From the NCBI RefSeq assembly GCF_039555335.1, contig NC_092637.1, positions 39,520,526 through 39,584,525 on the forward strand: a stretch of DNA of 64,000 bases, in the 5' to 3' direction. Under the pieces are notes generated by a model that saw only the letters and a program-made list of their open reading frames with translations, did no database searches and was not told the origin of the DNA. A program made the position numbers and the translations under genes. Shown one piece after another: positions 24,487-56,907 of the stretch (the first letter of the stretch is position 1; the number at the start of each line of letters is the position of its first letter). The stretch is from Amphiura filiformis (taxonomy: Eukaryota > Echinodermata > Ophiuroidea > Amphilepidida > Amphiuridae).

Positions 24487-26130
24487 AGGCCTAGATAGCT
24501 AGCATGATACCACGTATCACTCTCGTCAGCAGTAGATAGCTAGCATGATACCACGTATGTCATCCACACTCTCGTCAGCAGTAGATAGCTAGCATGATAC
24601 CACGTATGTCATCCACACTCTCGTTAGCAGTAGATAGCTAGCATGATACCACGTATGTCAGCAACACTCTCGTCAGTAGTAGATAGCTAGCATTATGCCA
24701 CGTATGCCATCAACCCTCTCGTCAGCAGTAGATAGCTAGCATGATACCACACATGTCATCAACACTCTCGTCAGCAGTAGATAGCTAGCATGATACCGTA
24801 GCACGCATGTCATCCACACTCTCGTCAGCAGTAGATAGCTAATATGATGCCACGTATGTCATCCACACTCTCGTCAGCAGTAGATAGCTAGCATGATACC
24901 ACGTATGTCATCCACACTCCCGTCAGCAGTAGATAGCTAATATGATGCCACGTATGTCATCCACACTCTCGTCAGCAGTAGATAGCTAGCATGATACCAC
25001 GTATGTCATCCACACTCTCGTCAGCAGTAGATAGCTAGCATGATACCACGTATGTCATCCACACTCTCGTTAGCAGTAGATAGCTAGCATGATACCACAT
25101 ATGTCAGCAACACTCTCGTCAGTAGTAGATAGCTAGCATTATGCCACGTATGCCATCAACCCTCTCGTCAGCAGTAGATAGCTAGCATGATACCACACAT
25201 GTCATCAACACTCTCGTCAGCAGTAGATAGCTAGCATCATACCGTACCACGCATGTCATCCACACTCTCGTCAGCAGTAGATAGCTAATATGATGCCACG
25301 TATGTCATCCACACTCTCGTCAGCAGTAGATAGCGAGCATGATACCACGTATGTCATCCACACTCTCGTCAGCAGTAGATAGCTAACATGATACCAAGTA
25401 TGTCATCCACACTCTCGTCAACAGTATAGATAGCTAGCATGATATCACGTATGTCATCAACACTCTCGTTAGCAGTAGATAGCGAGCATGATACCACGTA
25501 TGTCATCATCATTCTCGTCAGCAGTAGATAGCGAGCATGATACCACGTATGTCATCCACACTCTCGTCAGCAGTAGATAGCGAGCATGATACCACGTATG
25601 TCATCCACACTCTCGTCAGCAGTAGATAGCGAGCATGATATCACGTATGTCATCCACACTCTCGTCAGCAGTAGATAGCTAGCATGATACCACGTATGTC
25701 ATCCACACTCTCGTCAGCAGTAGATAGTGAGCATGATATCACGTATGTCATCCACACTCTCGTCAGCAGTAGATAGCTAGCATGATACCACGTATGTCAT
25801 CAACACTCTCGTCAACAGTAGATAGCTAGCATGATATCACGTATGTCATCCACACTCTCGTCAGCAGTAGATAGCTAGCATGATACCACGTATGTCATCA
25901 ACACTCTCGTCAGCAGTAGATAGCTAGCATGATACCACGTATGTCATCCACACTCTCGTCAGCAGTAGATAGTGAGCATGATATCACGTATGTCATCCAC
26001 ACTCTCGTCAGCAGTAGATAGCTAGCATGATACCACGTATGTCATCCACACTCTCGTCAGCAGTAGATAGCTAACATGATATCACGTATGTCATCCACAC
26101 TCTCGTCAGCAGTAGATAGCTAACATGATA
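24487..26130 (+). repeat. 49-bp satellite array, block 1
   Basis: Tandem 49-bp monomers with parts GTATGTCATCCACACTCTCG, TCAGCAGTAGATAGCTAGCA and TGATACCAC; about 33 monomers. Recurrent variants (GATATCACG, CACACATGTC, TAATATGATGCC) show a local higher-order repeat: the variant order at about 24622-24810 recurs at about 25070-25250. The block ends where the mariner-like element inserted. Confidence 0.95.
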
Positions 26131-26329
26131 CAGGGTGTCCCAAAAAAAGAGGCCCCTCATTGTGCCCTCTTTTTCGCCTATTTCTGAAAAGTTGATCAAA
26201 TATATTGGGGTATGTAAAGAAACCTTTAATTGTTAGCTTTAATAAACCAAAACAATTATTTCAATCGGCTCAAAACTTTTGAAGATATGCCCTTTTAAAG
26301 ACAAGTACCCGTTTTTTACTTGGTTGGGA

Positions 26330-27058
26330 TGGGTCATGCTGTGGTGTGGCCTGCAAGATCACCAGACCTCACACCACTTGATTTCTTCATTTGTGGCAAA
26401 ATCCAAGATCTTTGCAAACATATTACTGCTATATTCGCAATTACGGGAGGGCGAGTTAGCGCAGCGGTAATTCCCTCGCTATAGCGCAAGTTAGCGCAGC
26501 GGTAATTTAGGGCGAGTTAGCGCAGCGGTAATTCCCTCGCTTTGCACCACTGAGGTCCCGGGTTCAAGCCCCGGCGCGGCCCAAGGACTCATGTGCACTT
26601 GGTTTATCCCGATTCCATGCTCGCTCTCGCAGGTTTTCTCCGGGATCTCCGGTTTCCTCCTGTTTCGCAAAAATCGGTGATTAGTTGTTTAGTTATCAAA
26701 AACTTCCTTCACCCAATGGAATTTGGGGAACTGCACAGATAATTGGTGGATGTTACAATCTAAATGCGGATAGGTGTGCGCCGTTCGGCAGCAACCTAGT
26801 TGATGCGATCTGATTGTGATGATTCACCATTGCAGCGAAATTACAGCGCTTTGAGTCCTCTAAGATCTGGAGAAAGGCGCTTTATAAATCCAAAATTTAT
26901 TTTATTTTTTTATTTAAATATCCGGCGCACAAGGCTGGTACGCAACGCAATTGATGCAATGAGGACTAGGGCTGAAACCTGTATTCGTCAAGGAGGCAAT
27001 CAGGTAGAGGGCAGAGCAGCATGTAAACTCACTTCAAAAGAACCAAAGACAAACTAAA
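26330..27058 (+). pseudogene. Decayed mariner-family transposase, split by a SINE
   Basis: The motif WPARSPDLTPLDFFICGKI reads at about 26346-26402 and is typical of the region around the third catalytic acid of IS630/Tc1/mariner transposases. After the SINE a C-terminal piece (about 26932-27020) reads NAIDAMRTRAETCIRQGG, matching the usual transposase end. The catalytic N-terminal part is largely missing, so it is not active. Confidence 0.75.
26453..26912 (+). mobile_element. tRNA-derived SINE with L2/CR1-like tail
   Basis: The head has box A (GAGTTAGCGCAGCGGTAA) repeated three times and box B (GGTTCAAGCCC at about 26561). The 3' part has GCGCTTTGAG and GAGAAAGGCGCTTTATAAAT followed by a T/A-rich tail, as in SINEs that borrow an L2-type LINE tail. 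It sits inside the transposase region of the mariner-like element, so it inserted later. Confidence 0.8.
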
Positions 27059-27059
27059 C

Positions 27060-27095
27060 AGCCCTTTTCAGGGCTACCTTTTATTCCAAAAAGAG
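27060..27095 (+). promoter_or_regulatory. Histone-type 3' stem-loop with HDE-like purine tract
   Basis: AAAC-AGCCCT-TTTC-AGGGCT-ACC: a 6-bp perfect stem and UUUC loop at 27060-27075. Only the outermost pair differs from consensus (A-U for G-C, compensated). A purine-rich CAAAAAGAGAAA follows at about 27087, where a U7-binding histone downstream element would be expected. It lies just after the stop of the transposase remnant. Confidence 0.5.
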
Positions 27096-29526
27096 AAATG
27101 ACTTATGTTGTCAATAAAAAGAAAGCAAGAAACAATAAAGTAAGAAAGTAAGAAACATAATAAAACAAAAAGGCATAAAATAACCGAGAAAAACATAAGT
27201 AATTGCAAGCATAGCAAAAAAAGTCCCATCCCACATCAATTTCGCCCAAATTAATGACACTTAACAAAATCCATAACCCATAAACCCACGGGTAAAGCCC
27301 ATTCCCTAAAATAAAGTTGTTATTTTATAAAGTTATCATCGAGGAATGTTTTATATTCATGCATGGTATATGCACTTTTCAATCTTTGAAGTAGCCAAAC
27401 CTCCTCCGTGGACAGAGTGAAAAACGGATACATTTCTTTAAAAGGGCATATCTTCAAAAGTTATGAGCCGATTGAAATAATTGTTTCGGTTTATTAAAGC
27501 TAACGGGTAAAGGCTTCTTCACATACCAACATATGCTTGATCACCTTTTCTAAAATAGGAGAAAAAGAGGACGCAATGAGGGGCCTCATTTTTTGGGACA
27601 TCCTGTATCACGTATGTCATCAACACTCTCGTCAGCAGTAGATAGCTGATATGATACCACGTATGTTATCCACACTCTCGTCAGCAGTAGATAGCTAACA
27701 TGATGCCACGTATGTCATCCACACTCTCGTCAGCAGTAGATAGCTAGCATGAATGTCATCTACACTCTCGTGAGCAGTAGATACCACGTATGTCATCCAC
27801 ACTCTCGTCAGCAGTAGATAGCTAGCATGATACCACGTATGTCATCAACACTCTCGTCAGCAGTAGATAGCTAGCATGATACCACACATGTCATCCACAC
27901 TCTCGTCAGCAGTAGATAGCTAGCATGATACCACACATGTCATCCACACTCTCGTCAGCAGTAGATAGCTAGCATGATACCACGTATGTCATCAACACTC
28001 TCGTCAGAAGTATATATAGCTAATATGATACCACGTATGTCATCTACACTCTCGTCAGCAGTAGATAGCTGACATGATACCACGTATGTTATCCACACTC
28101 TCGTCAACAGTAGATAACGAGCATGATACCACGTATGTCATCCACACTCTCGCCAGCAGTAGATAGCGAGCATGATACCACGTATGTCATCCACACTCTC
28201 GTCAGCAGTAGATAGCGAGCATGATACCACGTATGTCATCCACACTCTCGTCAGCAGTAGATAGCGAGCGCGAGCATGATACCACGTATGTCATCCACAC
28301 TTTCGTCAGCAGTAGATAGCTAGCATGATACCACGTATGTCATTTACAGACTCGTCAGCAGTAGATAGCTAGCATGATGCCAGGTATGTCATCCACACTC
28401 GCGTCAGCAGTAGATAGCTAACATGATACCACGTATGTCATCCACACTCACGTCAGCAGTAGATAGCGAGCATGATATCACGTATGTCATCCACACTCTC
28501 GTCAGCAGTATATAGCTATCATGATACCACACTCTCGTCAGCAGTAGATAGCGAGCATGATACCACGTATGTCATCAACACTCTCGTCAGCAGTAGATAG
28601 CGAGCATGATATCACGTATGTCATCCACACTCTCGTCAGCAGTATATAGCTATCATGATACCACTATGTCATCCACACTCTCGTCAGCAGTAGATAGCTA
28701 ACATGATAAAAAGTATGTCATCCACACTCTCGTCAACAGTAGAAAGCTAGCATGATACCACGTATGTCATCAACACTCTCGTCAGCAGTAGATAGCTAGC
28801 ATGATACCACACATGTCATCCACACTCTCGTCAGCAGTAGATAGCTAGCATGATACCACACATGTCATCCACACTCTCGTCAGCAGTAGATAGCTAGCAT
28901 GATACCACACATGTCATCCACACTCTCGTCAGCAGTAGATAGCTAGCATGATACCACACATGTCATCCACACTCTCGTCAGCAGTAGATAGCTAGCATGA
29001 TACCACGTATGTCATCAACACTCTCGTCAGAAGTAGATAGCTAATATGATACCACGTATGTCATCTACACTCTCGTCAGCAGTAGATAGCTGACATGATA
29101 TCACGTATGTTATCCACACTCTCGTCAACAGTAGATAACGAGCATGATACCACGTATGTCATCCACACTCTCGCCAGCAGTAGATAGCGAGCATGATACC
29201 ACGTATGTCATCCACACTCTCGTCAGCAGTAGATAGCTGATATGATACCACGTATGTTATCCACACTCTCGTCAGCAGTAGATAGCTAACATAATGCCAC
29301 GTATGTCATCCACACTCTCGTCAGCAGTAGATAGCTAGCATGAATGTCATCTACACTCTCGTGAGCAGTAGATACCACGTATGTCATCCACACTCTCGTC
29401 AGCAGTAGATAGCTAGCATGATACCACGTATGTCATCAACACTCTCGTCAGCAGTAGATAGCTAGCATGATACCACACATGTCATCCACACTCTCGTCAG
29501 CAGTAGATAGCTTGCATGATACCACA

Positions 29527-29719
29527 CAAATCGTGTTTAACTATTTGCTTAAGAACGGCACAATGCAGACAAAGCAGACAGATTTACTACATGTGGTACA
29601 TGTATATACATATAGGGAATGTGTGCGAGTATTACCTAATTATAATAGGGGCGTATCCAAAAATGAATTCACGCCCCTTTCAAATGTCGAGCCAAAGTGC
29701 AGGCCCTATGATGATACTA
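29527..29719 (+). repeat. Non-satellite spacer in the higher-order unit, copy 1
   Basis: About 190 bp of unique sequence (AAATCGTGTTTAACTATTTG ... GCAGGCCCTATGATGATAC) between monomers. Copies recur at 31860 and 33237 and mark the higher-order unit. No gene recognised. Confidence 0.9.
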
Positions 29720-29885
29720 CGTATGTCATCAACACTCTCGTCAGCAGTAGATAGCTATCATGATACCACGTATGTCATCAACACTCTCGTCAGTAGTAGA
29801 TAGCGAGCATGATACCACGTATGTCATCAACACTCTCGTCAGCAGTAGATAGCGAGCATGATATCACGTATGTCATCCACACTCT

Positions 29886-29942
29886 AAAATAGGAGAAAAA
29901 GAGGACGCAATGAGGGGCCTCATTTTTTGGGACATCCTGTAT
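29886..29942 (+). repeat. Captured right end of the mariner-like element
   Basis: The last ~55 bp of the transposon (TAAAATAGGAGAAAAAGAGG to the TA) is joined to satellite at CACACTCT. It marks the junction between two higher-order copies, with a CT microhomology. Confidence 0.85.
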
Positions 29943-31859
29943 CACGTATGTCATCAACACTCTCGTCAGCAGTAGATAGCTGATATGATACCACGTATGT
30001 TATCCACACTCTCGTCAGCAGTAGATAGCTAACATGATGCCACGTATGTCATCCACACTCTCGTCAGCAGTAGATAGCTAGCATGAATGTCATCTACACT
30101 CTCGTGAGCAGTAGATACCACGTATGTCATCCACACTCTCGTCAGCAGTAGATAGCTAGCATGATACCACGTATGTCATCAACACTCTCGTCAGCAGTAG
30201 ATAGCTAGCATGATACCACACATGTCATCCACACTCTCGTCAGCAGTAGATAGCTAGCATGATACCACACATGTCATCCACACTCTCGTCAGCAGTAGAT
30301 AGCTAGCATGATACCACGTATGTCATCAACACTCTCGTCAGAAGTATATATAGCTAATATGATACCACGTATGTCATCTACACTCTCGTCAGCAGTAGAT
30401 AGCTGACATGATACCACGTATGTTATCCACACTCTCGTCAACAGTAGATAACGAGCATGATACCACGTATGTCATCCACACTCTCGCCAGCAGTAGATAG
30501 CGAGCATGATACCACGTATGTCATCCACACTCTCGTCAGCAGTAGATAGCGAGCATGATACCACGTATGTCATCCACACTCTCGTCAGCAGTAGATAGCG
30601 AGCGCGAGCATGATACCACGTATGTCATCCACACTTTCGTCAGCAGTAGATAGCTAGCATGATACCACGTATGTCATTTACAGACTCGTCAGCAGTAGAT
30701 AGCTAGCATGATGCCAGGTATGTCATCCACACTCGCGTCAGCAGTAGATAGCTAACATGATACCACGTATGTCATCCACACTCACGTCAGCAGTAGATAG
30801 CGAGCATGATATCACGTATGTCATCCACACTCTCGTCAGCAGTATATAGCTATCATGATACCACACTCTCGTCAGCAGTAGATAGCGAGCATGATACCAC
30901 GTATGTCATCAACACTCTCGTCAGCAGTAGATAGCGAGCATGATATCACGTATGTCATCCACACTCTCGTCAGCAGTATATAGCTATCATGATACCACTA
31001 TGTCATCCACACTCTCGTCAGCAGTAGATAGCTAACATGATAAAAAGTATGTCATCCACACTCTCGTCAACAGTAGAAAGCTAGCATGATACCACGTATG
31101 TCATCAACACTCTCGTCAGCAGTAGATAGCTAGCATGATACCACACATGTCATCCACACTCTCGTCAGCAGTAGATAGCTAGCATGATACCACACATGTC
31201 ATCCACACTCTCGTCAGCAGTAGATAGCTAGCATGATACCACACATGTCATCCACACTCTCGTCAGCAGTAGATAGCTAGCATGATACCACACATGTCAT
31301 CCACACTCTCGTCAGCAGTAGATAGCTAGCATGATACCACGTATGTCATCAACACTCTCGTCAGAAGTAGATAGCTAATATGATACCACGTATGTCATCT
31401 ACACTCTCGTCAGCAGTAGATAGCTGACATGATATCACGTATGTTATCCACACTCTCGTCAACAGTAGATAACGAGCATGATACCACGTATGTCATCCAC
31501 ACTCTCGCCAGCAGTAGATAGCGAGCATGATACCACGTATGTCATCCACACTCTCGTCAGCAGTAGATAGCTGATATGATACCACGTATGTTATCCACAC
31601 TCTCGTCAGCAGTAGATAGCTAACATAATGCCACGTATGTCATCCACACTCTCGTCAGCAGTAGATAGCTAGCATGAATGTCATCTACACTCTCGTGAGC
31701 AGTAGATACCACGTATGTCATCCACACTCTCGTCAGCAGTAGATAGCTAGCATGATACCACGTATGTCATCAACACTCTCGTCAGCAGTAGATAGCTAGC
31801 ATGATACCACACATGTCATCCACACTCTCGTCAGCAGTAGATAGCTTGCATGATACCAC

Positions 31860-32051
31860 ACAAATCGTGTTTAACTATTTGCTTAAGAACGGCACAATGC
31901 AGACAAAGCAGACAGATTTACTACATGTGGTACATGTATATACATATAGGGAATGTGTGCGAGTATTACCTAATTATAATAGGGCGTATCCAAAATGAAT
32001 TCACGCCCCTTTCAAATGTCGAGCCAAAGTGCAGGCCCTATGATGATACTA
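31860..32051 (+). repeat. Non-satellite spacer, copy 2
   Basis: Same sequence as 29527-29719 with two single-base deletions (GGGGCG to GGGCG; AAAAATG to AAAATG). Confidence 0.9.
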
Positions 32052-33236
32052 CGTATGTCATCAACACTCTCGTCAGCAGTAGATAGCTATCATGATACCA
32101 CGTATGTCATCAACACTCTCGTCAGTAGTAGATAGCGAGCATGATACCACGTATGTCATCAACACTCTCGTCAGCAGTAGATAGCGAGCATGATATCACG
32201 TATGTCATCCACACTCTCGTCAGCAGTATATAGCTATCATGATACCACTATGTCATCCACACTCACGTCAGCAGTAGATAGCTAACATGATACAAAGTAT
32301 GTCATCCACACTCTCGTCAACAGTAGATAGCTAGCATGATACCACGTATGTCATCAACACTCTCGTCAGCAGTAGATAGCTAGCATGATACCACACATGT
32401 CATCCACACTCTCGTCAGCAGTAGATAGCTAGCATGATACCACACATGTCATCCACACTCTCGTCAGCAGTAGATAGCTAGCATGATGCCACGTATGTCA
32501 TCAACACTCTCGTCAGAAGTAGATAGCTAATATGATACCACGTATGTCATCTACACTCTCGTCAGCAGTAGATAGCTGACATGATACCACGTATGTTATC
32601 CACACTCTCGTCAACAGTAGATAACGAGCATGATACCACACATGTCATCCACACTCTCGCCAGCAGTAGATAGCGAGCATGATACCACGTATGTCATCCA
32701 CACTCTCGTCAGCAGTAGATAGCTGATATGATACCACGTATGTTATCCACACTCTCGTCAGCAGTAGATAGCTAACATGATGCCACGTATGTCATCCACA
32801 CTCTCGTCAGCAGTAGATAGCTAGCATGAATGTCATCTACACTCTCGTGAGCAGTAGATACCACGTATGTCATCCACACTCTCGTCAGCAGTAGATAGCT
32901 AGCATGATACCACGTATGTCATCAACACTCTCGTCAGCAGTAGATAGCTAGCATGATACCACACATGTCATCCACACTCTCGTCAGCAGTAGATAGCTAG
33001 CATGATACCACGTATGTCATCAACACTCTCGTCAGCAGTAGATAGCTAGCATGAATGTCATCTACACTCTCGTGAGCAGTAGATACCACGTATGTCATCC
33101 ACACTCTCGTCAGCAGTAGATAGCTAGCATGATACCACGTATGTCATCAACACTCTCGTCAGCAGTAGATAGCTAGCATGATACCACACATGTCATCCAC
33201 ACTCTCGTCAGCAGTAGATAGCTTGCATGATACCAC

Positions 33237-33428
33237 ACAAATCGTGTTTAACTATTTGCTTAAGAACGGCACAATGCAGACAAAGCAGACAGATTTACTA
33301 CATGTGGTACATGTATATACATATAGGGAATGTGTGCGAGTATTACCTAATTATAATAGGGGCGTATCCAAAAATGAATTCACGCCCCTTTCAAATGTCG
33401 AGCCAAAGTGCAGGCCCTATGATGATAC
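33237..33428 (+). repeat. Non-satellite spacer, copy 3
   Basis: Like copy 1, without the two deletions of copy 2. So copy 3 did not derive from copy 2 in its present form. Confidence 0.9.
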
Positions 33429-35531
33429 TACGTATGTCATCAACACTCTCGTCAGCAGTAGATAGCTATCATGATACCACGTATGTCATCAACACTCTCG
33501 TCAGTAGTAGATAGCGAGCATGATACCACGTATGTCATCAACACTCTCGTCAGCAGTAGATAGCGAGCATGATATCACGTATGTCATCCACACTCTCGTC
33601 AGCAGTATATAGCTATCATGATACCACTATGTCATCCACACTCACGTCAGCAGTAGATAGCTAACATGATACAAAGTATGTCATCCACACTCTCGTCAAC
33701 AGTAGATAGCTAGCATGATACCACGTATGTCATCAACACTCTCGTCAGCAGTAGATAGCTAGCATGATACCACACATGTCATCCACACTCTCGTCAGCAG
33801 TAGATAGCTAGCATGATACCACACATGTCATCCACACTCTCGTCAGCAGTAGATAGCTAGCATGATGCCACGTATGTCATCAACACTCTCGTCAGAAGTA
33901 GATAGCTAATATGATACCACGTATGTCATCTACACTCTCGTCAGCAGTAGATAGCTGACATGATACCACGTATGTTATCCACACTCTCGTCAACAGTAGA
34001 TAACGAGCATGATACCACACATGTCATCCACACTCTCGCCAGCAGTAGATAGCGAGCATGATACCACGTATGTCATCCACACTCTCGTCAGCAGTAGATA
34101 GCTGATATGATACCACGTATGTTATCCACACTCTCGTCAGCAGTAGATAGCTAACATGATGCCACGTATGTCATCCACACTCTCGTCAGCAGTAGATAGC
34201 TAGCATGAATGTCATCTACACTCTCGTGAGCAGTAGATACCACGTATGTCATCCACACTCTCGTCAGCAGTAGATAGCTAGCATGATACCACGTATGTCA
34301 TCAACACTCTCGTCAGCAGTAGATAGCTAGCATGATACCACACATGTCATCCACACTCTCGTCAGCAGTAGATAGCTAGCATGATACCACGTATGTCATC
34401 AACACTCTCGTCAGAAGTAGATAGCTAATATGATACCACGTATGTCATCTACACTCTCGTCAGCAGTAGATAGCTGACATGATACCACGTATGTTATCCA
34501 CACTCTCGTCAACAGTAGATAACGAGCATGATACCACGTATGTCATCCACACTCTCGTCAGCAGTAGATAGCGAGCATGATACCACGTATGTCATCCACA
34601 CTTTCGTCAGCAGTAGATAGCGAGCATGATACCACGTATGTCATCCACACTCTCGTCAGCAGTAGATAGCGAGCATGATACCACGTATGTCATCCACACT
34701 CTGGTCAGCAGTAGATAGCTAGCATGATACCACGTATGTCATTTACAGACTCGTCAGCAGTAGATAGCTAGCATGATGCCAGGTATGTCATCCACACTCG
34801 CGTCAGCAGTAGATAGCTAACATGATACCACGTATGTCATCCACACTCACGTCAGCAGTAGATAGCGAGCATGATATCACGTATGTCATCCACACTCTCG
34901 TCAGCAGTATATAGCTATCATGATACCACGTATGTCATCAACACTCTCGTCAGCAGTAGATAGCTGACATGATACCACGTATGTCATCCACACTCACTTC
35001 AGCAGTAGATAGCGAGCATGATACCACGTATGTCATCAACACTCTCGTCAGCAGTAGATAGCGAGCATGATATCACGTATGTCATCCACACTCTCGTCAG
35101 CAGTATATAGCTATCATGATACCACTATGTCATCCACACTCTCGTCAGCAGTAGATAGCTAACATGATACAAAGTATGTCATCCACACTCTCGTCAACAG
35201 TAGATAGCTAGCATAGCACGTATGTCATCAACACTCTCGTCAGCAGTAGATAGCTAGCATGATACCACACATGTCATCCACACTCTTGTCAGCAGTAGAT
35301 AGCTAGCATGATACCACGTATGTCATCAACACTCTCGTCAGCAGTAGATAGCTGACATGATATACCACGTATGTCATCCACATTCACGTCAGCAGTAGAT
35401 AGCAAGCATGATACCACGTATGTCATCAACACTCTCGTCAGCAGTAGATAGCTATCATGATACCACGTATGTCATCAACACTCTCGTCAGTAGTACATAG
35501 CGAGCATGATACTGTAACGGGATTTCCCCTC

Positions 35532-35540
35532 TATAAATAG
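35532..35540 (+). promoter_or_regulatory. TATA box in the LTR-like insertion
   Basis: TATAAATAG, 20 bp from the element start. Good match to the animal TATA consensus; transcription from it is inferred. Confidence 0.45.
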
Positions 35541-37526
35541 CGTGTTTTTCCATTATTTTGCAAGCCAAATAATCACGTGTTTTGCGGCTACATCAAGGTA
35601 TTTCTGTTGTGTACAACCCCTGCTCATGTACGGTACTTATTTTATTTTTAGAAGTTTGCATTGTATTCAGCGCGTACTGGTAACGTTGTAAGCTGTTGTA
35701 CAGGAAGCGGCATCGCCTTTGTGAAGATTTAGCAATCGCGGACGCTGATTGGTTGAAAGTCAGCTGATCCAAACTTTGGCGTGGGTTTGGGGTGCGCGAT
35801 TTGAGAAACTTGTCAGACTAGACTAGACCAGGGGACTGATGCAGGACGACCAAGACTGATTCAGGAGACGGAGAGACTGCAGACCGTGTTACGTGATGGA
35901 TAGGCGAGTAGAAAGCGACGAGAGAAGGCAATTTTGACAAATGGACAGATAATATTACTTGTGTGTTTTTCTGGAGGAGTAAGACGAGAGTTTGGAAGAG
36001 ATGGAGATTACCGTGACAATATTTTCGTGTGGAATTGGAAAAGACCAAGTAAATTGACAGCAGCGAATGGACGATACAAATTTACAAGTTGACGAGTTTT
36101 AATTGTGACGACATTCACTTCGTAGTATGAGAAAGATTCACATTTTCCCTTTATATTTGAGTGGATATTATCGCCTGGATTGGAGTTATATCTTCAATGG
36201 AGTTTTGGCAGCTCATGGCGCACGCAATGGACATGATATTTTCAAGTGATTTAGCGAAGACGCCATTTTCTTCCATCGTATGTATTTCTGCAATGGACAT
36301 TTCGCAATTAAAAAGCTGGCCAGCAAAATGTCGGATTTTAATTCAGTGCACTTCGCGAGAACGACAGACAAGCAAGATCGACAGGCGATGACATGGGACA
36401 TTGTGTGTATATTTTTAATGTGAGTTTATGATTTTGATATGCATATTTAAATGTAAACAAACAATTTGTGCTTCTTGTGTGGGGGGATGAGTAAAATAAA
36501 TGTTTGCCAAATTGGGATGTGTTTTGAGCAATGTTTGGGTTTTATTTGTTTTGAACATTGTTTTGAGAGTCAAAATATCTGAAATTGGGTCAGAGTTCAA
36601 GTTCAGGTCATTGTTTGGCAGGGATTGGGACAAAACCTTGTGGAAAGTAAAATGGGTTAAAATATTATGTTTTGTAAAACAAGCAGCACAGATGATTGGA
36701 AATTGTCATGACATTTTGTGTACAGAAAGTCAAACTTGGTGTAAATAAATATTTGAAGCTATTTCATTATGTTATTGACATTTTGTGGCAAAAGTATGGT
36801 GCGCCAAAAGCGTCATAATTGCGATTGTGAACATGGTTCAGATATTGTGCACTTTGCGAAAAAGTAGACCAGGGTAAGATAGTGTGTGACTTTAAATAAC
36901 ATGTAGTTGCATAATTTACCAGATTTGTGCATGCTGATTGCGTAATCATATTTTGATTTGGGCTAAATGCTCTGTGTATATTAAAATATGTAGTGCATCA
37001 TTTGATTCAAGATTTGCATAATCTATCACTGTTATATTGGATATGTGATGGTGTCATATTTTAGGCCTTCCCTTACCTTAAATGGTTGTGGTGGAGACTC
37101 TTGTGCTTCTGGGTCTCTCTTGCTTTAATTAGTTGGAAAGTACAGTAAAATTGTCAACTTAGTAGTTACCTTTAAGCCCAGTAAAGCACCCCTTAATATC
37201 CAATTGTATTTCTGTGTGCATTTTGTGAATTAAAGTCCTTGGTTTATGTAAAATGCTCAATTTGTGAAATGTATAGTAAGCTATTTTCATAAAGATATAA
37301 CTTGGTTATGGCAAGCCATTGTTGACAAAATTAGCATTGAAATTGATGGTTATTGTGTGACAAAAATAGATCATTTTACATTATGTGATAAATGATACAG
37401 CCATTGTTGAAACCTTGTATTTATGTGTGTTGAAATCTGTCAAGTTGAGTATTGGATAAAATTACACGGGATTTGTGTACCAACACAAAATGTGTGTTGA
37501 TGAGTAAACAGGTTGTATTTCATTAA

Positions 37527-38897: not shown

Positions 38898-40068
38898 ATA
38901 CCACGTATGTCATCCACACTCTCGTCAACAGTAAATAGCTATCATGATACCACGTATGTCATCAACACTCTCGTCAGCAATAGATAGTGAGCATGATACC
39001 ACGTATGTCATCCACACTCTCGTCAGCAGTAGGCCCTAGATAGCTATCACGATACCACATATGTCATCCACACTCTCGTCAGCAGTAGATAGCTAGCATG
39101 ATACCACGTATGTCATCCACACTCTCGTCAGCAGTAGATATAGCATGATACAACGTATGTCATCCACACTCTCGTCAGCAGTAGATAGCTAACATGATAC
39201 CAAGTATGTCATCCACACTCTCGTCAGCAGTAGATAGCTAGCATGATACCACGTATGTCATCAACACACTCGTCATCAGTAGATAGCTAGCATGATGCCA
39301 CCTATGTCATCCACACTCTCGGCAGCAGTAGATAGCTAGCATGATACCACGTATGTCATCAACACTCTCGTCAGCAGTAGATAGCGAGCATGATATCACG
39401 TATGTCATCAACACTCTCGTCAGCAGTAGATAGCTGACATGATATACCACGTATGTCATCCACATTCACGTCAGCAGTCGGATAGCGAGCATGATACCAC
39501 GTATGTCATCAACACTCTCGTCAGCAGTAGATAGCTAGCATGATACCACGTATGTCATCCACACTCTCGTCAGCAGTAGATATAGCATGATACAACGTAT
39601 GTCATCCACACTCTCGTCAGCAGTAGATAGCTAACATGATACAAGTATGTCATCCACACTCTCGTCAACAGTAGATAGCTAGCATGATACCACGTATGTC
39701 ATCAACACACTCGTCATCAGTAGATAGCTAGCATGATGACACGTATGTCATCCACACTCTCGTCAGCAGTAGATAGCTAGCATGATACCACGTATGTCAT
39801 CAACACTCTCGTCAACAGTAGATAGCTAGCATGATACCAAGTATATGTCATCCACACTCTCGTCAGCAGTAGATAGCTAACATGATACCAAGTATGTCAT
39901 CCACACTCTCGTCAACAGTAGATAGCTAGCATGATACCACGTATGTCATCAACACACTCGTCATCAGTAGATAGCTAGCATGATGCCACGTATGTCATCC
40001 ACACTCTCGTCAGCAGTAGATAGTTAGCATGATGCCACGTATGTCATCAACACACTCGTGAGCAGTAG
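38898..40068 (+). repeat. 49-bp satellite array, block 3
   Basis: About 24 monomers between the LTR-like element and the unique segment at 40069. Variant order matches 42177-42896, so blocks 3 and 4 share a duplicated unit. One monomer carries a GGCCCTA insertion (39032-39038). Confidence 0.95.
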
Positions 40069-40565
40069 AAAGTTAAATATTTTTACTAATTTCGTGAAAA
40101 AAGAGCCAAAAAAAAACACACGCATTTTCGATGATGTTTTCTCACGATCGAGTCAAAAAATCAAGACTTGGAACAAGTCTAAATATTCAAAATCTTTACG
40201 CAATTTTGCTCTAATTTCACCTTTTATGATTATTGCCTTTTCCAAAAATTAGAATGCATAAATTGAAATTAGACTTCGTACAAGTGTTTAAATTTGATTG
40301 TCACAGAATGTGAAAAAAAACCTAAAATCACGTGTTTTTGGCCCTTAATTCATAAATTTAGCCAAATAGTGAAATTTAACTTTTATAGAACTAGGCCTAA
40401 ATGAATAACTAGCTGGGATTGAGCTCTGTTTCATTTGGCAGAAGTTGGTGATATTTTTTTTTAATCTAGAAAATTTAGTGCTGTATTTTTCTGGAATGGA
40501 GGCGAGTAGGCCTAATGTTCCTTTATATCATACCATGTAAGAGTAGTTTCCACTGGGACACCCTG
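40069..40565 (+). repeat. Unique spacer, copy 1, joined to a mariner TIR end
   Basis: About 480 bp, AT-rich, near identical to 42897-43375. At its right end it changes abruptly to GGGACACCCTGTA, the last bases of the mariner-type TIR, and then satellite starts again. No gene. Confidence 0.85.
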
Positions 40566-42896: not shown

Positions 42897-43375
42897 GAAA
42901 GTTAAATATTTTACTAATTTTGTGAAAAAAGAGCAAAAAAAAACACGCATTTTCGATGATGTTTTCTCACGATCGAGTCAAAAAATCAAGACTTGGAACA
43001 AGTCTAAATATTCAAAATCTTTACACAATTTTGCTCTAATTTCACCTTTTATGATTATTGCCTTTTCCAAAAATTACTAATAGAATGCATAAATTGAAAT
43101 TAGACTTCGTACAAGTGTTTAGATTTGATTGTCACAGCATGTGAAAAAAACCCTAAAATCACGTGTTTTTGGCCCTTAATTAATAAATTTGGCCAAATAG
43201 TGAAATTTAACTTTTATAGAACTAAATGAATATCTGGGATTGAGCTCTGTTTCATTTGGCAGAAGTTGGTGATATTTTTTTTAATCTAGAAAATTTAGTG
43301 CTGTATTTTTCTGGAATGGAGGCGAGTAGGCCTAATGTTCCTTTATATCATACCATGAAAGAGTAGTTTCCACTC
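42897..43375 (+). repeat. Unique spacer, copy 2 (right border of the array)
   Basis: Near identical to 40069-40550 with small indels, and lacks its GGCCTA at the position after AACTA. It runs on without a break into single-copy sequence, so it is probably the original flank. Confidence 0.85.
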
Positions 43376-45654: not shown

Positions 45655-45870
45655 CTCATATTTTTCTCATTAACATATGCTGAAATTAGGCGTTCCAAAT
45701 TGGTAGGCCTATATTTCCGGAGAAATCATCAAAAAACTGTCGAATTAGTCTCAAATGTGGTAGGCCTATACCATATTTTAAACTAATTCAACAGTTTTTT
45801 AATCATATCTTCTGAAATACACCGATTTGGAACTCCTAATTTCAATATGTTAATGAGAAAAATAGGATCT
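45655..45870. mobile_element. Hairpin repeat with TTTTTCTCATTAACATATG arms
   Basis: Arms of about 85 bp at 45655-45740 and 45788-45870 are inverted copies around GAATTAGT. The left arm has an extra AGGCCT-type insertion (about 45706-45713) absent from the right arm. Confidence 0.7.
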
Positions 45871-46590: not shown

Positions 46591-46657
<67 letters not shown>

Positions 46658-47612: not shown

Positions 47613-47637
47613 TTGTTGTTGTTTTTTATCTACCCAA

Positions 47638-47804: not shown

Positions 47805-48054
47805 AATAAATAGCATTTAGAATCTCATCCCGATTCATTGCATCTTTCTACTCTAGAAGTAATGTTTTACATTATTTTCTCTAAATTTTTACTTCATTAT
47901 GTAGCGGCGAATTTTTACCTCTTTTTTTTTTTTTTTTTCTTATAGCTTGGCATATAGGCCGAATGCCGAGAAAGATCATTTGGTATATTTTTTTTATATT
48001 TCATGTTTGTTTGTCTGTCTGTCTGTTTTTTTGGGTTTTTTTTATCTACCCAAG

Positions 48055-48222
48055 ATACCATTTACGGTGCGATTTGCAAATCACCCGTTGCGACATGCAT
48101 CATCTTCTGTGAACACGCGCGAGCCTGTGCTTACGGCATGCATCATTTACGATCTGCATCATTTTCTCGGAACGCGCCCGCAAACGGCTATCTTCTGAAG
48201 ATAGCATTGCAGGCCTAATAAA
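48055..48222 (+). repeat. Short block, copy 2
   Basis: Near identical to copy 1 (one base change, GTGTGA to GTGCGA, at the start). Confidence 0.9.
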
Positions 48223-48691
48223 TAAATGTTTTACATTATTTTCTCTAAATTTTTACTTCATCATGTAGCGGCGAGTTTTTCTTTCTAATACATCAGTCCC
48301 GATCAGAAAGTTTAAAGCGATATTACAGACTCATCACTTTCCGCATCTGCCTGTTTCTCTATTTTTTACCTCCTCCCCCTTTTTTTTTTTTTTAAATAGC
48401 GCGGCATATAGGCCGAATGCCGATTTTTGTTATTCGCGCAGAGTAACCGTGCGCGTTTTAGGATTTTTTCGCTATATCTACTGATATAGGCCTAGCATTT
48501 AGAATCTCATATAGTCCCAAATTAACGCATATAGTCCCAAATTAAACCAAAACAAAATGTCGCAACATTTGCAATTTTAATTTGATTCTCAGTAGATCAT
48601 CACCAGTAGGCCTAATTCGATTCGAAAACATATATCTCGCGCAGGGGACAATGAAAACATAGGCCTGCATTTTATTTCGGCTATATAGCCT

Positions 48692-49384
48692 CCCAGCAAA
48701 CACAAAACGTTTTCGACATCATTCGCAAAAGGTTATAAAAGGTTGTCAGAAAACGTTTAAATGTCGGGTTATATAAAGGGTATATTAAGAGTATTAAACG
48801 TTTTCATAACCTTAAAAAACATTTTTTTGATAATCTACTGCTCAGCAAACAAAATGTTTTACAGAAAACGTTTAAATGTCGGGTAATATAAAGGGTATAA
48901 AAACGTTTTAATAACATTCCAAAAACATTCTTGAAAACTTGATACAAAACATTATAAACAGAATGTTATTTTGGGGTTGAAAAAATATTTTGCGAAAAAT
49001 GTTTGCCCAAAATATTTTCAATAACGTTTTAAAAACGTTTTCATGACCTTTATATAACCCGACATTTAAATGTTATTAAAAGGTTTTGAAAAAACCATTT
49101 TAAGAACATTTCTGTGTTTACTTGGTTCAAATATTTTAACATAATGTTATTTAAGTATTGACACAATATTTGGCAAAAATGTTTGCAAAAATAGTTTACA
49201 ATAACATTTTTTGAAAACATTTAAAAATATTGTTGTAGTGTGTTTTCATACAAAACGTTTTAAAATGTTATCATGACCTTTATATAACCCGACATTTTAA
49301 TGTTATTAAAACGTTTTTACCTAAACCAAAAGCCAAAATATAACTTATTTAAAACGTTTTTAAAACGTTTTTGTGTTTGCTGGG
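48692..49384. mobile_element. MITE/foldback with CCCAGCAAACACAAAACG ends (copy 2)
   Basis: 693 bp, the reverse-orientation relative of 6234-6916, with the same inner blocks (ATGTCGGGTTATATAAAGG). The paralogous locus at about 52215-52250 lacks it (AGCC...TAGAAGAAAAAA), showing a true insertion. Confidence 0.85.
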
Positions 49385-50243
49385 TAGAAGAAAAAACCAC
49401 ATGCAATTAAAATTATAAAGCAAAACAAAATGTAGCAACATTTGACATTTTAATTTGATCTTCAGAAGATAGCAAGCAGTAACATGATTCTCTAAAATAT
49501 CGCTTTTGGGTTCATATACCACTAAATCCGCCTGCGAAGCGGTTTCCGGTAAAAGTTTATCACGCCTATAGGCCTAGTCCCAAACTTTGCATAAAAATTC
49601 TAGAAAATCGGTACAATATTAACAATTTTAGTGTTGAAAATCGTGTTTTACTATAGAACTTGTGAATGTGATCTCTACAAATTTGTAAAGAAAATGCGAA
49701 AATTTGAGTGATATTTACGATTATATGCGCATGAACAAACGAGGTCAGAAAGCGGTTAGCCGTCGGATGTAAACACAGGAAAATGTGACCTTTTTATATA
49801 GCACTAATTTTCATAGCACTAATTTTCTGAAAAATTAGTCGTACCTAAAATGTGTAGTCATTTTCAGAAATGTTATGCAGAATTTTGTTCTAGTTAAGAT
49901 GATATCAAATATATATTTCAAAGTTGGACGTAACTCGTCTTATGGCCAAAACGCGTGACCCCTATTTAGCACGTAAAGTCTCTGGAAAGCTTTTCTGTGG
50001 TATGTACCCTTTATCTCGTTCAGCAAACAAAAACGACAACCAACGGGCATTTAAATTTGAGCTATCTGCAGTTGATAGCAAAATCACACTTATCCGACAA
50101 ACACCAAAATGACATAAAACAGATAGAGAAATGTAAAAGCTTTATTTCAAAGTTTGTTTCAGTGTCATACAGTATTCGGTTCTTGAGATATTTCAATTTT
50201 AATATTACCCTTGTAAATCAATGCAGGAGCTCTATAGACACCG
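49385..50243 (+). repeat. Long block of the composite repeat, copy 1
   Basis: Starts GAAGAAAAAACCACATGCAA, ends at AGGAGCTCTATAGACACCGG. Aligns with 52246-53092 and 54706-55312. The short ORFs in it differ by frameshift between copies, which argues against coding. Confidence 0.9.
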
Positions 50244-51262: not shown

Positions 51263-51514
51263 AGCATTTAGAATCTCATCCCGATTCATTGCATCTTTCT
51301 ACTCTAGAAGCAATGTTTTACATTATTTTCTCTAAATTTTTACTTCATTATGTAGGCCTAGCGGCGAATTTTTACCTCTTTTTTTGCCCCCTTTTTTCTT
51401 ATAGCTTGGCATATAGGCCGAATGCCGAGAAAGATCATTTGGTGTATTTTTTATATTTCATGTTTGTTTGTCTGTCTGTTTGATTGTTTTTTTTGTTTTT
51501 TTATCTACCCAAGA

Positions 51515-51695
51515 TACCATTTACGGTGCGATTTGCAAATCACCCGTTGCGACATGCATCATCTTCTGTGAACACGCGCGAGCCTGTGCAAGCTTAGGCC
51601 TACGGCATGCATCATTTACGATCTGCATCATTTTCTCGGAACGCCCCCGCAAACGGCTATCTTCTGAAGATAGCATTGCAGGCCTAATAAATAAA
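51515..51695 (+). repeat. Short block, copy 4
   Basis: Like copy 1, but with CAAGCTTAGGCCTA where the others have CTTA (GGCCTA gain at 51597-51602). Confidence 0.9.
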
Positions 51696-52245
51696 TAGCA
51701 TTTAGAATCTCATCCCGATTCATTGCATCTTTCTACTCTAGAAGTAGGCCTAATGTTTTACATTATTTTCTCTAAATTTTTACTTCATCATGTAGCGGCG
51801 AGTTTTTTCTTTCTAATACATCAGTCCCGATCAGAAAGTTTAAAGCGATAATTACAGACTCATCACTTTCCGCATCTGCCTGTTTCTCTATTTTACCTCC
51901 CCCTTTTTTTTTTTTTTTAATAGCGCGGCATATAGGCCGAATGCCGATTTTTGTTATTCGCGCAGAGTAACCGTGCGCGTTTTAGGATTTTTTCGCTATA
52001 TCTACTGATATAGGCCTAGCATTTAGAATCTCATATAGGCCTAGTCCCAAATATATAGGCCTAGTCCCAAATTAAACCAAAACAAAATATCGCAACATTT
52101 GCAATTTTAATTTGATTCTCAGTAGATCATCACCAGTAGGCCTAATTCGATTCGAAAACATATATCTCGCGCAGGGGACAATGAAAACATAGGCCTGCAT
52201 TTTATTTCAGCTATAGGCCTATAGCCTACTAGTATTCAGTAGGTA

Positions 52246-53092
52246 GAAGAAAAAACCACATGCAATTAAAATTATAAAGCAAAACAAAATGTAGCAACAT
52301 TTGACATTTTAATTTGATCTTCAGAAGATAGCAGTTACATGATTCTATAAAATATCGCTTTTGGGTTCATATAGGCCCTACCACTAAATCCGCCTGCGAA
52401 GCGGTTTCCGGTAAAAGTTTATCACGCCTATAGTCCCAAACTCGGCATAAAAATTCTAGAAAATCGGTACAATATTAACAATTTTAGTGTTGAAAATCGT
52501 GTTTTACTATAGAACTTGTGAATGTGATCTCTACAAATTTGTAAAGAAAATGCGAAAATTTGAGTGATATTTACGATTATATGCGCATGAACAAACGAGG
52601 TCAGAAAGCGGTTAGCCATCGGATGTAAACACAGGAAAATGTGACCTTTTAATATAGGCTAGCACTAATTTTCTGAAAAATTAGTCGTACCTAAAATGTG
52701 TAGTCATTTTCAGAAATGTTATGCAGAATTTTGTTCTAGTTAAGATGATATCAAATATATATTTCAAAGTTGGACGTAACTCGTCTTATGGCCAAAACGC
52801 GTGACCCCTATTTAGCACGTAAAGTCTCTGGAAAGCTTTTCTGTGGTATCACCCTTTATCTCGTTCAGCAGACAAAAACGACAACCAACGGGCATTTAAA
52901 TTTGAGCTATCTGCAGTTGATAGCAAAATCACACTTATCCGACAAACACCAAAATGACATAAAACAGATAGAGAAATGTAAAAGCTTTATTTCAAAGTTT
53001 GTTTCAGTGTCATACAGTATTCGGTTCTTGAGATATTTCAATTTTAATTACCCATGTAAATCAATGCAGGAGCTCTATAGACACTAGACTGG
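52246..53092 (+). repeat. Long block of the composite repeat, copy 2
   Basis: Near identical to 49385-50243. It carries GGCCCTA (52374-52380) that copy 1 lacks, and is followed by about 240 bp of unique DNA (53093-53370) before the blocks resume. Confidence 0.9.
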
Positions 53093-54705
53093 CCCCCAGT
53101 CTCGGTTCGGTTCCATCTCTGGATAATGTAACAATAAATAATTACGTAATGCCCTATGAAAAAAATGCCAACTCCCCCCCTTATTTTCTTCAATGCCAAA
53201 ACCCATTCCTCTTCATCCACAAATCGACGCCACTAAATTACACCCACCACAGTCAACCATGCAGCAATATAGAAATATACTCGTATTATAAGTGAACGCG
53301 AAAGTCCATTGAGCGCTGATTCCATGCTATGTAATCTACATTACCAGTCGTTCTCCACGGACCCGAGGGAGGGTCTATAGACACCGGCACCAGATGTCTC
53401 GCCGCCACATTTTCTTTTAGTATAAAAATCGGCACCAGGCCGAATGCAAAGCTATAAAGAAATATTAAAATGACGAAGCTGACCAAAATTGCTATCTTCA
53501 GAAGAAAGCAAGCAAAAAAAAAAAAAAATAATAATATTAAAATCAAAAAAAAAAAAAAACATTGCCTAGCACGCGTTGTAGATGATGATTCAGTACGGCG
53601 CGAAACGGTAAAACTGCATTGAACGGGGTTACGCGCTCAGAGAAAAATCGGCATGTCGACTGCCGAGCTATAAAGAAATGTAAAATTAACGAAGCTGACC
53701 AAAATTTTAAACGGCACTTAGGGCCTATAAAGCAGAGATTATCATCTGCCTGTTTCTCTATTTTTACCTCTTTTTTTCTCCCTTTTTTTTTAAATAGCGC
53801 GGCATATAGGCCGAATGCCGATTTTTAAATTCGGGCAGAGTAACCGTGCGAGTTTTAGGATTTTTTCGCTATAGGGCCTATCTACTGAAGATAGCATTTA
53901 GAATCTCATCCCGATTCATTGCATCTTTCTACTCTAGAATGTTTTACATTATTTTCTCTAAATTTTTACTTCATCATGTAGCGGCGAATTTTTTCTTTCT
54001 AATACATGTCATTAGTTCCGATCTGAAAGTTTAAAGCGATATTAGGCCTACGGCATGCATCATTTACGATCTGCATCATTTTCTCGGAACGCCCCCGCAA
54101 ACGGCTATCTTCTGAAGATAGCATTGCAGGCCTAATAAATAGATAGCATTTAGAATCTCATCCCGATTCATTGCATCTTTCTACTCTAGAAGTAATGTTT
54201 TACATTATTTTCTCTAAATTTTTACTTCAGCGGCGAGTTTTTTCTTTCTAATACATCAGTCCCGATCAGAAAGTTTAAAGCGATAATTACAGACTCATCA
54301 CTTTCCGCATCTGCCTGTTTCTCTATTTTTACCTCCCCCCTTAAAAAAAAAAATTTTAAATAGCGCGGCATATAGGCCGAATGCCGATTTTTGTTATTCG
54401 CGCAGAGTAACCGTGCGCGTTTTAGGATTTTTTTCGCTATATCTACTGATAGGCCTAGCATTTAGAATCTCATATAGTCCCAAATTAACGCATAGGCTAT
54501 AGGCCTAGTCCCAAATTAAACCAAAACAAAATGTCGCAACATTTGCAATTTTAATTTGATTCTCAGTAGATCATCACCAGTAGGCCTAATTCGATTCGAA
54601 AACATAGGCCCTATATCTCGCGCAGGGGACAATGAAAATATAGGCCTGCATTTTATTTCAGCTATAGGCCTATTATAGCCTACTAGTATTCAGTAGGTAG
54701 GCCTA

Positions 54706-55312
54706 GAAGAAAAAACCACATGCAATTAAAATTATAAAGCAAAACAAAATGTAGCAACATTTGACATTTTAATTTGATCTTCAGAAGATAGCAGTTACAT
54801 GATTCTATAAAATATCGCTTTTGGGTTCATATAGGCCTATAGGCCTACCACTAAATCCGCCTGCGAATTTCAAAAAAATCAAAATTATTTGATATCAGAA
54901 GGACATTCTTCGTATTCAGAATGCAATTCGATATGTCTGATGTGCTCTAATGTCCCAAAATAAATACTGTCCAAACGTTCATCAAAGTTGGACGTAACTC
55001 GTCTTATGGCCAAAACGCGTGACCCCCTATTTAGCACGTAAAGTCTCTGGAAAGCTTTTCTGTGGTATGTACAAAATAGACTCGTTCAGCAGACAAAAAC
55101 GACAACCAACGGGCATTTAAATTTGAGCTATCCCGGGTGAGCTATCTGCAGTTGATCACACTCCGACAAACACCAAAATGACATAAAACAGATAGAGAAA
55201 TGTAAAAGCTTTATTTCAAAGTTTGTTTCAGTGTCATACAGTATTCGGTTCTTGAGATATTTCGATTTTAATATTACCAATGTAAAAGTCAATGCAGGAG
55301 CTCTATAGACAC
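54706..55312 (+). repeat. Long block of the composite repeat, copy 3 (recombined)
   Basis: Starts as the other two, but the middle is replaced by a piece of the dispersed foldback family (54866-54985), after which the copy resumes at CAAAGTTGGACGTAACTCG. It carries GGCCTATAGGCCTA at 54834-54847. Confidence 0.85.
54866..54985. mobile_element. Fragment of the dispersed foldback family
   Basis: Contains TTTGATATCAGAAGGACATTC and AATAAATACTGTCCAAACGT, as in the right arm of 23218-23850. It replaces, rather than simply interrupts, the middle of the composite block. Confidence 0.75.
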
Positions 55313-55633
55313 CGGCACCAGAAACGAGCAAATTACGGCATGTCTCGCCACATTTTCTTTTAGTAGGCCTATAAAAATCGGCACTAGGCCGAATGCAAAG
55401 CTATAAAGAAATGTTAAAATGACGAAGCTGACCAAAATTGCTATCTTCAGAAGAAAGCAAGCAAAAAAAAAAAAAAAAAAAATAATAATAATAATATTTA
55501 AAAAAACCAAAAAAAAAAACATTGTCTAGCACGCGTTGTAGATGATGATTCAGTACGGCGCGAAATGGCAAAACTGCATTGAACGGGGTTGCGCGCTCAG
55601 AGAAAAATCGGCATTGGGCCGACTGCAGAGCTA

Positions 55634-56575
55634 TAGTCCAGTCAATCTAAACAAATTAGTGGTGTCACCCACCACAAATTGCAACAGAATTTTTTTCACT
55701 TTTATACATTTTAGAGATGTCCCCTGAACATCATACCAAAAATATACTAAAATATACTTGGTGGAAAGGTAGTTTTTGTCGGGAAAATGTCATACAGGGG
55801 TCAAATTTCAAAATTGCTTTAATCTTTTTAAAAACTATACCAAAGCATTCCTCTAGTCTTAGGGATTCAGAAAAAGTATAGTTTGTCATATCTGTGATGT
55901 ACCATTCTCAATTTATAAGCAAAAAGGTCAAAGGTCAAATTTTGGGCTCCATGTGGGTCAACTTCGAAAAAATGCTCCGATTTCCTTAAAAATGGTCTCA
56001 ATGTGTTCGTCCTTTAAAAACACTCCAAAATAAGAATAGTTTGCCATATCTTGGATGCTTCGTTACCTAGGTAGCAGGGTAAAAGAGGTCATTGACCATT
56101 GAACTCTATTGACCCCGACCTAGTTTTCGATGTTACGCATGTAATTAAACAACCTAAACAGTGCAAATATTATTTAAATGAATTATGTTTGCAAGCCGAA
56201 CAATTTGAGACCATTTTGGTTTAAATCAGACAATTTTTAGTTTTTTGACCTCTGTTGAACCCAACATTTGACCTTTGACCTTTTCGACTATAACTCAAGA
56301 ACCGTACATCACAGGTAGGCCCTATGGCAAACTATATTTTTTCTGAATCCTTATGACTAGAGGAATAATGTGGTATAGTTTTTAAAATGGTTGGAACAAT
56401 TTAAAAATTTGACCCCTGTATGACCTTTTCCCGCCAAAAGCTACCTTTCCACCAAGTATAGGCCTATTTTAGTATACTTTTTGTATGCTGTTCAGGGGAC
56501 ATCTCTGACATTCATAGGAGTGAAAAAAATTCTGTTGCAATTAGTGGTGAGTCAAAACCCACGTTGACTGGACTA
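55634..56575. mobile_element. 942-bp foldback transposon, TSD CTA
   Basis: Perfect 12-bp TIR TAGTCCAGTCAA / TTGACTGGACTA, long imperfect arms (about 300 bp) and flanks CTA at 55631-55633 and 56576-56578. The paralogous empty sites at 50541 and 53668 read GAGCTATAAAG with one CTA. A 3-bp TSD suggests a PIF/Harbinger-like element. No ORF. Confidence 0.85.
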
Positions 56576-56907
56576 CTATAAAGAAATGTAAAAATGACGA
56601 AGCTGACCAAAATTTAAAACGGCACTTATTAAGCAGAGATTATCATATGCCTGTTTCTCTATTTTTACCTCTTTTTTTTCTCCTTTTTTTTTTAAATAAC
56701 GCGGCATAGGCCTATAGGCCGAATGCCGATTTTTAATTCGGGCAGAGTAACGTGCGCGTTTTAGGATTTTTTCGCTATAGGCCTATCTACTGAAGATAGC
56801 ATTTAGAATCTCATCCCGATTCATTGCATCTTTCTACTCTAGAATGTTTTACATTATTTTCTCTAAATTTTTACTTCATCATGTAGCGGCGAATTTTTTC
56901 TTTCTAA

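Follow-up and report, generated by a model that had tools for sequence, protein, structure and literature searches.

Putative excision scars of a TA-duplicating transposon in a 64-kb stretch of the Amphiura filiformis genome

Introduction

Transposons of the Tc1/mariner type are cut out in such a way that 2-3 nt 3' overhangs of the element stay on the flanking DNA, and end joining then leaves a footprint between two TAs (PMC7827188, PMC3878927). We describe here insertions of GG(G)(C)CC between two TAs in 64,000 nucleotides of DNA from Amphiura filiformis (RefSeq assembly GCF_039555335.1, contig NC_092637.1, positions 39,520,526 to 39,584,525 of the forward strand); this whole stretch is called the window, and positions count from its first base. 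A first-pass annotation, made from the letters of the window, had noted that paralogous copies within it differ by an extra GGCCTA, GGGCCTA or GGCCCTA directly after a TA, and had read the extra bases as transposon footprints or, alternatively, as a polymerase-templated palindrome insertion.

Published footprints of Tc1/mariner-type elements are mixed, ranging from 0 to 4 bp (PMC7913693, PMC1925063); local hopping is reported for these elements, and Tc1-like ones favour a ATATATAT target (PMC7913693). Mariner and Stowaway scars retain terminal bases, and excision of PIF/Harbinger elements is as a rule precise (PMC4561436). Of 94 excisions compared in rice, 8 were perfect and the rest carried deletions or fillers (PMC4423477); against this, the uniform product described below is unusual.

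The present locus resembles Tc1, Sleeping Beauty, ZB and Stowaway/Osmar in a TA duplication enclosing what would be 2-3 terminal bases of an element (PMC3878927), and the Triticeae beta-amylase case in showing several footprint states at one site (PMC1925063). It differs from Sleeping Beauty, whose ends are C(A/T)G (PMC3878927), in that the ends would here be GG(G), and from known Tc1/mariner footprints in general by a very high density of scars with no copy of the element found in the window.

Results

Duplicated sequences within the window provide filled and empty versions of the same site, which we compared over 18-nt flanks, allowing at most 10 mismatches per 40 compared bases. For 18 of the 19 filled sites listed by the first-pass annotation there is a duplicate that lacks exactly GG(G)(C)CC and one TA; the left flank of the remaining site, 52056, has diverged. 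At 15 of the 19 the paralogous place reads plain TA in its own alignment row, and three more are seen as aligned gaps (51595, 52036 and the double insertion at 54832). Eight sites have a plain-TA empty counterpart with no mismatch in 36 flank bases: 51353, 51745, 52372, 53719, 54605, 54698, 55364 and, within satellite, 39030. The clean TA that had been claimed for the empty state was found at most sites; the exceptions are 45704, which reads TG, and the family of 48487, which differs by 2-3 bases at the left. Filled sites beyond those already listed are 49569 (empty at 52431) and 54493-54507 (empty at 48532). The pair 52655 (GGC) and 49799 is ambiguous, as a rival alignment with a 15-bp difference has fewer mismatches.

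Where copies are many, one filled copy stands against six empty ones (51353) or seven empty ones (56707); because a single filled copy faces many empty copies, the polarity of insertion is supported. Some of the inserts (48607, 52137, 54581) are common to diverged copies and therefore look inherited.

The octamer TA-GGCC-TA, TAGGCCTA, occurs 46 times in the window against 0.52 expected under an order-2 Markov model, and under the same model the five-base forms TAGGGCCTA and TAGGCCCTA occur 3 and 4 times against 0.14 and 0.12 expected. Together these make 53 inserts, here called scars, all of them, like every result below, from this one window. The excess of the octamer suggested earlier is thus borne out by counting at this scale, and it is for this window only that either of the two mechanisms first proposed explains its frequency. 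Masking of the satellite arrays leaves 45 copies in 48.7 kb, and the 45.5 kb of non-satellite sequence holds 43, compared with maxima of 3, 3, 6 and 19 in Markov simulations of orders 1, 2, 3 and 4 (40 simulations per order). Within the single-copy flanks (31 kb) TAGGCCTA is the commonest palindromic octamer (n = 13), followed by A/T words (n = 11). In the matches listed by our searches of open-licence literature, some of which covered only the head of the list, we saw no description of TAGGCCTA as a scar or insertion.

The enrichment is specific for TA. When GGCC is flanked on both sides by the same dinucleotide, TA gives 46 occurrences against 0.55 expected and each of the other 15 dinucleotides 0-2. 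Among the 16 palindromic TA-N4-TA words GGCC is again far out, with the same counts, and several others are raised 2- to 6-fold at low counts, namely TACATGTA (7 against 1.6), TACTAGTA (3 against 0.54) and some A/T-rich words. The rise of TACATGTA is found in the non-satellite part, and this is the word that would result from Tc1-type 2+2 scars with CA ends.

Insertions and deletions as a whole point the same way. Sixty aligned indels of 3-9 bp have good flanks, and 38 of them duplicate a dinucleotide: TA in 16 cases and other dinucleotides in 22 (AA most often, n = 9), the latter with no common insert. Fourteen of the 16 TA-duplicating indels hold GGCC (10), GGCCC (2) or GGGCC (2), and the other two hold AT and T. 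Indels of GG(G)(C)CC plus TA account for 22 of 59 indel rows of 4-14 bp and 16 of 27 rows of 6-7 bp; these rows are not events, and collapsing by hand gives about 18 of 42 events. The fifth base, where present, is a G beside GG or a C beside CC (3 and 4 cases), and GGGCCC between TAs is absent from the window, where 0.2 is expected with a third-base rate fitted to the same counts. The tally of 46 GGCC, 7 five-base forms and 0 GGGCCC agrees with two, rarely three, bases per end, as a consistency check and not a strong test. One TAGGGGGCCTA, at 24255, matches no simple scar form.

A purine stands directly before TA in 61 of 78 half-sites (A 36, G 25; 39 distinct sites) against a background of 52% (p = 2e-6), and T at this position is rare (10 of 78, background about 32%), with the -2 position near background composition in the same 78 half-sites. 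Purine-TA-pyrimidine is a symmetric target preference, as around transposon targets.

Scars are concentrated at 51.3-56.9 kb, where 25 of 476 TAs are filled against 24 of 3440 in five other stretches (Fisher p = 3e-11, duplication-shared scars included), or 5.25 scars per 100 TA compared with a roughly tenfold lower 0.5 per 100 TA in the left flank. The neighbouring block at 47.5-51.3 kb, which is paralogous and largely the same in sequence, has 3 scars. A hand tally of private scars gives 15 in the right-hand copies against one (49569) in the left-hand block (p = 0.004, or 14:1 and p = 0.007 without 52655), the p values using estimated aligned lengths of 3.3 and 4.9 kb. Since sister copies had equal time, the scar rate seems to depend on place, as local hopping would give.

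Single sites can exist in several states. The first-pass annotation was correct in recognizing three states at 50732: one TA is empty at 50733, holds GGCC at 56778 and GGGCC at 53872. Another is empty at 49517, holds GGCCC at 52372 and is doubly filled at 54832. Two TAs, filled in one copy, border a deletion of 7 bp or 4 bp in other copies (54229; 53938 and 56843); several states at one TA are as recurrent breaks would give. At 54043 a junction resembling a deletion of about 700 bp has TAs at both ends, joined by GGCC. Small extra changes adjoin the scars near 51588 (AAGC) and 54671 (TTA). Multi-state sites, junctions and adjoining changes together suit double-strand breaks at TA that are usually, but not always, sealed to GGCC. 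The AAGC filler itself, at 51588-51593 beside the scar, is an inverted duplicate of the adjoining GCTT.

Ten paralogue pairs, which overlap and are not independent (nine lie in the 47-57 kb cluster), differ by 233 substitutions over 5714 aligned bases, and the scar kind accounts for 19 of their 33 gaps of 4-14 bp. The rate in these pairs is about 0.04 insertions per TA against 0.04 substitutions per base; the non-satellite sequence has 3712 TA in 45,480 bases. Because nine of the pairs come from the cluster and the left flank is about tenfold poorer in scars, the genome-wide scar rate may lie well below that of the cluster.

There are 33 one-mismatch forms of TAGGCCTA where 13 are expected; 20 belong to four repeat families, and the 13 left match the 13 expected. 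The idea that these words are old and decayed was dropped on this count, and since independent decayed copies are near background the scars look young.

Discussion

The inserts are probably excision scars of a cut-and-paste, TA-duplicating DNA transposon with 5'-GG(G)...(C)CC-3' ends. Such an element would enter at a TA to give TA-[GG...CC]-TA; at each end its transposase would nick one strand 2 bases, or rarely 3, into the element and so leave GG or GGG on the flanks as 3' overhangs; and end joining would fill in and seal the gap as TA-GG-CC-TA, TA-GGG-CC-TA or TA-GG-CCC-TA. The parent would be a mobile, low-copy, locally hopping element working like Tc1/mariner (IS630-type). What the window shows directly is the outcome: sites in filled and empty form, specificity for TA, the forms of the scars, a preference for certain sites and the hot region. 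The footprint reading of the first-pass annotation gains from the TA specificity, the 2+2 and 2+3 forms, the symmetric preference, the multi-state sites and the hot spot, and loses from the want of a parent in the window. As neither element nor transposase was seen, we do not file the parent as a member of Tc1/mariner; the process would work like one.

Several observations weigh against excision scars. In the search for a parent, TAGG and CCTA lying no more than 5 kb apart were paired, with up to 5 mismatches allowed over 16 bases; none of the best 40 pairs in the 64-kb window bounds an element that has TAGG..CCTA ends with terminal inverted repeats, against 53 scars, and no transposase with such specificity was identified in the window. 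Sloppy repair is expected to give trimmed forms, yet TAGGCTA (4 against 2.1) and TAGCCTA (6 against 2.4) are barely in excess and TAGGTA and TACCTA are at background; the scars are also more uniform than the published 0-4 bp footprints. The ATATATAT target is matched in part only, with G frequent at -1 and the -2 position near background. The hot-spot statistic counts scars shared through duplication, the private tally comes from related, non-independent copies, and clustering within the single-copy flanks is not significant (p about 0.4).

Candidate parents were rejected individually. The three best pairs, with at most 2 mismatches in 16 (18828-19006, 45687-45838 and 60398-60459), each lie inside a longer foldback; around the first, at 18732-19107, the aligned complementarity runs on beyond the TAGGGG..CCCCTA pair, which is therefore not an element end. 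Most others among the best 40 are scars paired through their own GGCCTA. One satellite insertion, 26131-27605, is TA-flanked and has CAGGGTGTCCC ends, not GG; a second, 29525-29748, has no clear ends by eye. Nine open reading frames (ORFs) were searched against Pfam, and the matches, two weak ones to reverse transcriptase and one to a membrane domain, were all under the curated cut-offs; one exon-like ORF, used as a query for homologues, found none at E <= 0.001. In viral contigs there was no match to a 30-mer taken from a short repeat of the window, and in the genome-contig collection searched none to a satellite 30-mer. The tandem 16-mer matched viral contigs at 16 places; the tandem aside, a further TAGGCCTA occurs in two of these 16 stretches and a five-base variant in none, and we take the matches as chance.

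Fifty-three scars, with no parental element found in 64 kb, could also come from breakage and repair with no element involved, an explanation that we consider unlikely: a nuclease or stalled replication would open TA, and a repair polymerase or a domesticated transposase would add GG to both 3' ends before joining. The great uniformity of the product (14 of 16 TA-duplicating indels) and the few trimmed forms would fit, and the GGCC-joined junction of two TAs at 54043 would require just two breaks. To set against this, an enzyme that puts exactly two G on each end is not known to us, and both the purine-TA-pyrimidine preference and a local hot spot are usual for transposition.

We find it highly improbable that TAGGCCTA itself moves into TAs, by local copying or as a palindromic insertion sequence of minimal size. 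It is a perfect palindrome and forms tandem doubles (54832-54847, 54493-54507), but six bases would be too few for recognition ends and cargo, the five-base variants are asymmetric, and intermediate-sized relatives are few (TAGGNNCCTA 0, TAGGNNNCCTA 1).

At least as improbable is that TAGGCCTA is a maintained functional word or an assembly artefact and not a trace of insertion. The cyanobacterial HIP1 is likewise an octamer, perfectly palindromic and far in excess (PMC4390886), and the few one-mismatch neighbours counted above are as under selection for an exact word. Unlike HIP1, TAGGCCTA arises here in animal DNA, by clean insertion with TA duplication and not by substitution, and some scars, common to diverged copies, look inherited. 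That telomerase or terminal transferase adds G at broken ends is far-fetched: TA then GG(G) looks like TTAGGG, telomerase primes on TTA and terminal transferase favours G, yet the T expected before TA in the former case stands at only 10 of 78 half-sites against about 32% background, and in place of the variable lengths expected in the latter there are 46 GGCC and 7 five-base forms.

Other systems fit less well than the Tc1/mariner mode. The TA-bounded eliminated sequences of Paramecium share the TA boundaries and depend on a domesticated transposase, but they are removed from the somatic nucleus without such a scar, unlike the scars here, which look inherited. Scars of the hAT type consist of palindromic bases from flanking DNA, and were set aside because the same GGCC occurs at sites with unrelated flanks; the TTAA target and scarless excision of piggyBac are not seen at the filled sites. 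The ends of mPing (PIF/Harbinger, Tourist) start with GGCC, according to the primers printed in PMC4561436, but elements of this group duplicate 3 bp (TWA) and generally excise precisely (PMC4561436), whereas the sites here show a 2-bp duplication and a 4-5 bp scar.

More broadly, and tentatively, a TA-directed process, be it a hyperactive low-copy transposon leaving almost only scars or an element-free break-and-repair, may write GGCC into this genome, with a per-TA insertion rate in the repeat cluster that is about the per-base substitution rate. In that case, TA-directed writing of GGCC would be one of the main sources of indels in this lineage, and a recent one. Should the scars prove to be what they look like, an 8-base word would record much of the history of a transposon's jumps, even for an element that has vanished; the frequency of each end-joining product of excision could be tested in a natural germ line, and a single mobile element would account for a large fraction of mid-sized indels (19 of 33 gaps, or 22 of 59 uncollapsed rows). 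If no element exists, the pathway would be a new, TA-specific mutational one.

Table 1. Scars and related sites in the window (strand not assigned)
Feature	Position	Comparison
TA-GGCC-TA	51353..51360	empty TA at 47902 (0 flank mismatches) and 5 further copies
TA-GGCC-TA with adjoining 4-bp AAGC filler	51595..51602	empty near 48131
TA-GGCC-TA	51745..51752	empty TA at 47860, 50795 and 54193; 0 mismatches each
TA-GGCC-TA	52036..52043	empty near 48515, flanks 27/30
TA-GGCC-TA	52056..52063	listed by the first-pass annotation; empty state unconfirmed, left flank diverged
TA-GGCC-TA	52214..52221	empty TA at 48684 (7 mismatches); same scar plus TTA at 54665
TA-GGCCC-TA (2+3)	52372..52380	empty TA at 49517 (0 mismatches); other state at 54832
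possible TA-GGC-TA (trimmed form)	52655..52661	against TA at 49799; ambiguous, alignment with 15-bp difference fits better
TA-GGGCC-TA (3+2)	53719..53727	empty TA at 50590 (0 mismatches), also 56627
TA-GGGCC-TA	53872..53880	empty TA at 50733; GGCC state at 56778
TAGGCCTA at deletion-like (~700 bp) junction	54043..54050	left side as 50896, right side as 51597
double scar TA-GGC-TATA-GGCC-TA	54493..54507	empty near 48532
TA-GGCCC-TA	54605..54613	empty TA at 48631 and 52161; 0 mismatches
TA-GGCC-TA, then extra TTA relative to 52214	54665..54672	paralogue alignment
TA-GGCC-TA	54698..54705	empty TA at 52244, 0 mismatches
tandem TAGGCCTATAGGCCTA	54832..54847	empty TA at 49517
TA-GGCC-TA	55364..55371	empty TA at 50296 (0 mismatches) and 53421
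TA-GGCCC-TA	56316..56324	empty in other foldback arm, 55890 (5 mismatches)
TA-GGCC-TA	56459..56466	empty in other foldback arm, 55754 (2 mismatches)
TA-GGCC-TA	56707..56714	empty TA in 7 further copies, 2 of them with 9 mismatches
TA-GGCC-TA	56778..56785	empty TA at 50733; GGGCC at same site in 53872
TA-GGCC-TA	49569..49576	empty TA at 52431; sole private scar tallied in 47.5-51.3 kb block
TAGGCCTA	48487..48494	common to 52011 and (2-base difference) 54450; unfilled relative 50745 differs by 2-3 bases at left
TAGGCCTA	48607..48614	present in three copies (with 52137 and 54581)
TA-GGCCC-TA in one 49-bp satellite unit	39030..39038	233/240 matching units read TA; 42309 with 0 mismatches
TA-GGCC-TA	40392..40399	empty TA at 43223, 6 mismatches
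TAGGCCTA	24486..24493	left edge of 49-bp satellite array
hot region	51300..56900	25 scars/476 TA against 24/3440 TA in five other non-satellite stretches

Other features of the window

Arrays of a 49-bp satellite occupy 24480-36200, 38900-40080 and 40560-42910, and a segmental duplication pairs about 38.9-40.5 kb with 41.7-43.4 kb. The TA-flanked element at 26131-27605, inside satellite, begins with CAGGGTGTCCC and ends with GGGACATCCTG, and by our own reading encloses tRNA-like segments of the short interspersed nuclear element (SINE) type. An element of about 700 bp with inverted ends CCCAGCAAACAC..GTGTTTGCTGGG is present at 6234-6922 (minus strand) and 48686-49384 (plus strand), the two copies being 93% identical. 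Two insertions interrupt copies of the repeat cluster: a long foldback at 55637-56575, with an empty counterpart near 50545 and a target duplication, by eye, of CTA or TA, and the second copy (54862-54982) of a 120-bp repeat, 95% identical to the first at 23733-23851. Three kinds of feature, again in our reading of the sequence, point to eukaryotic and most likely animal DNA: putative exon-like transmembrane ORFs, pieces resembling a Penelope-like reverse transcriptase and GIY-YIG, and a TA-flanked candidate element of mariner type.

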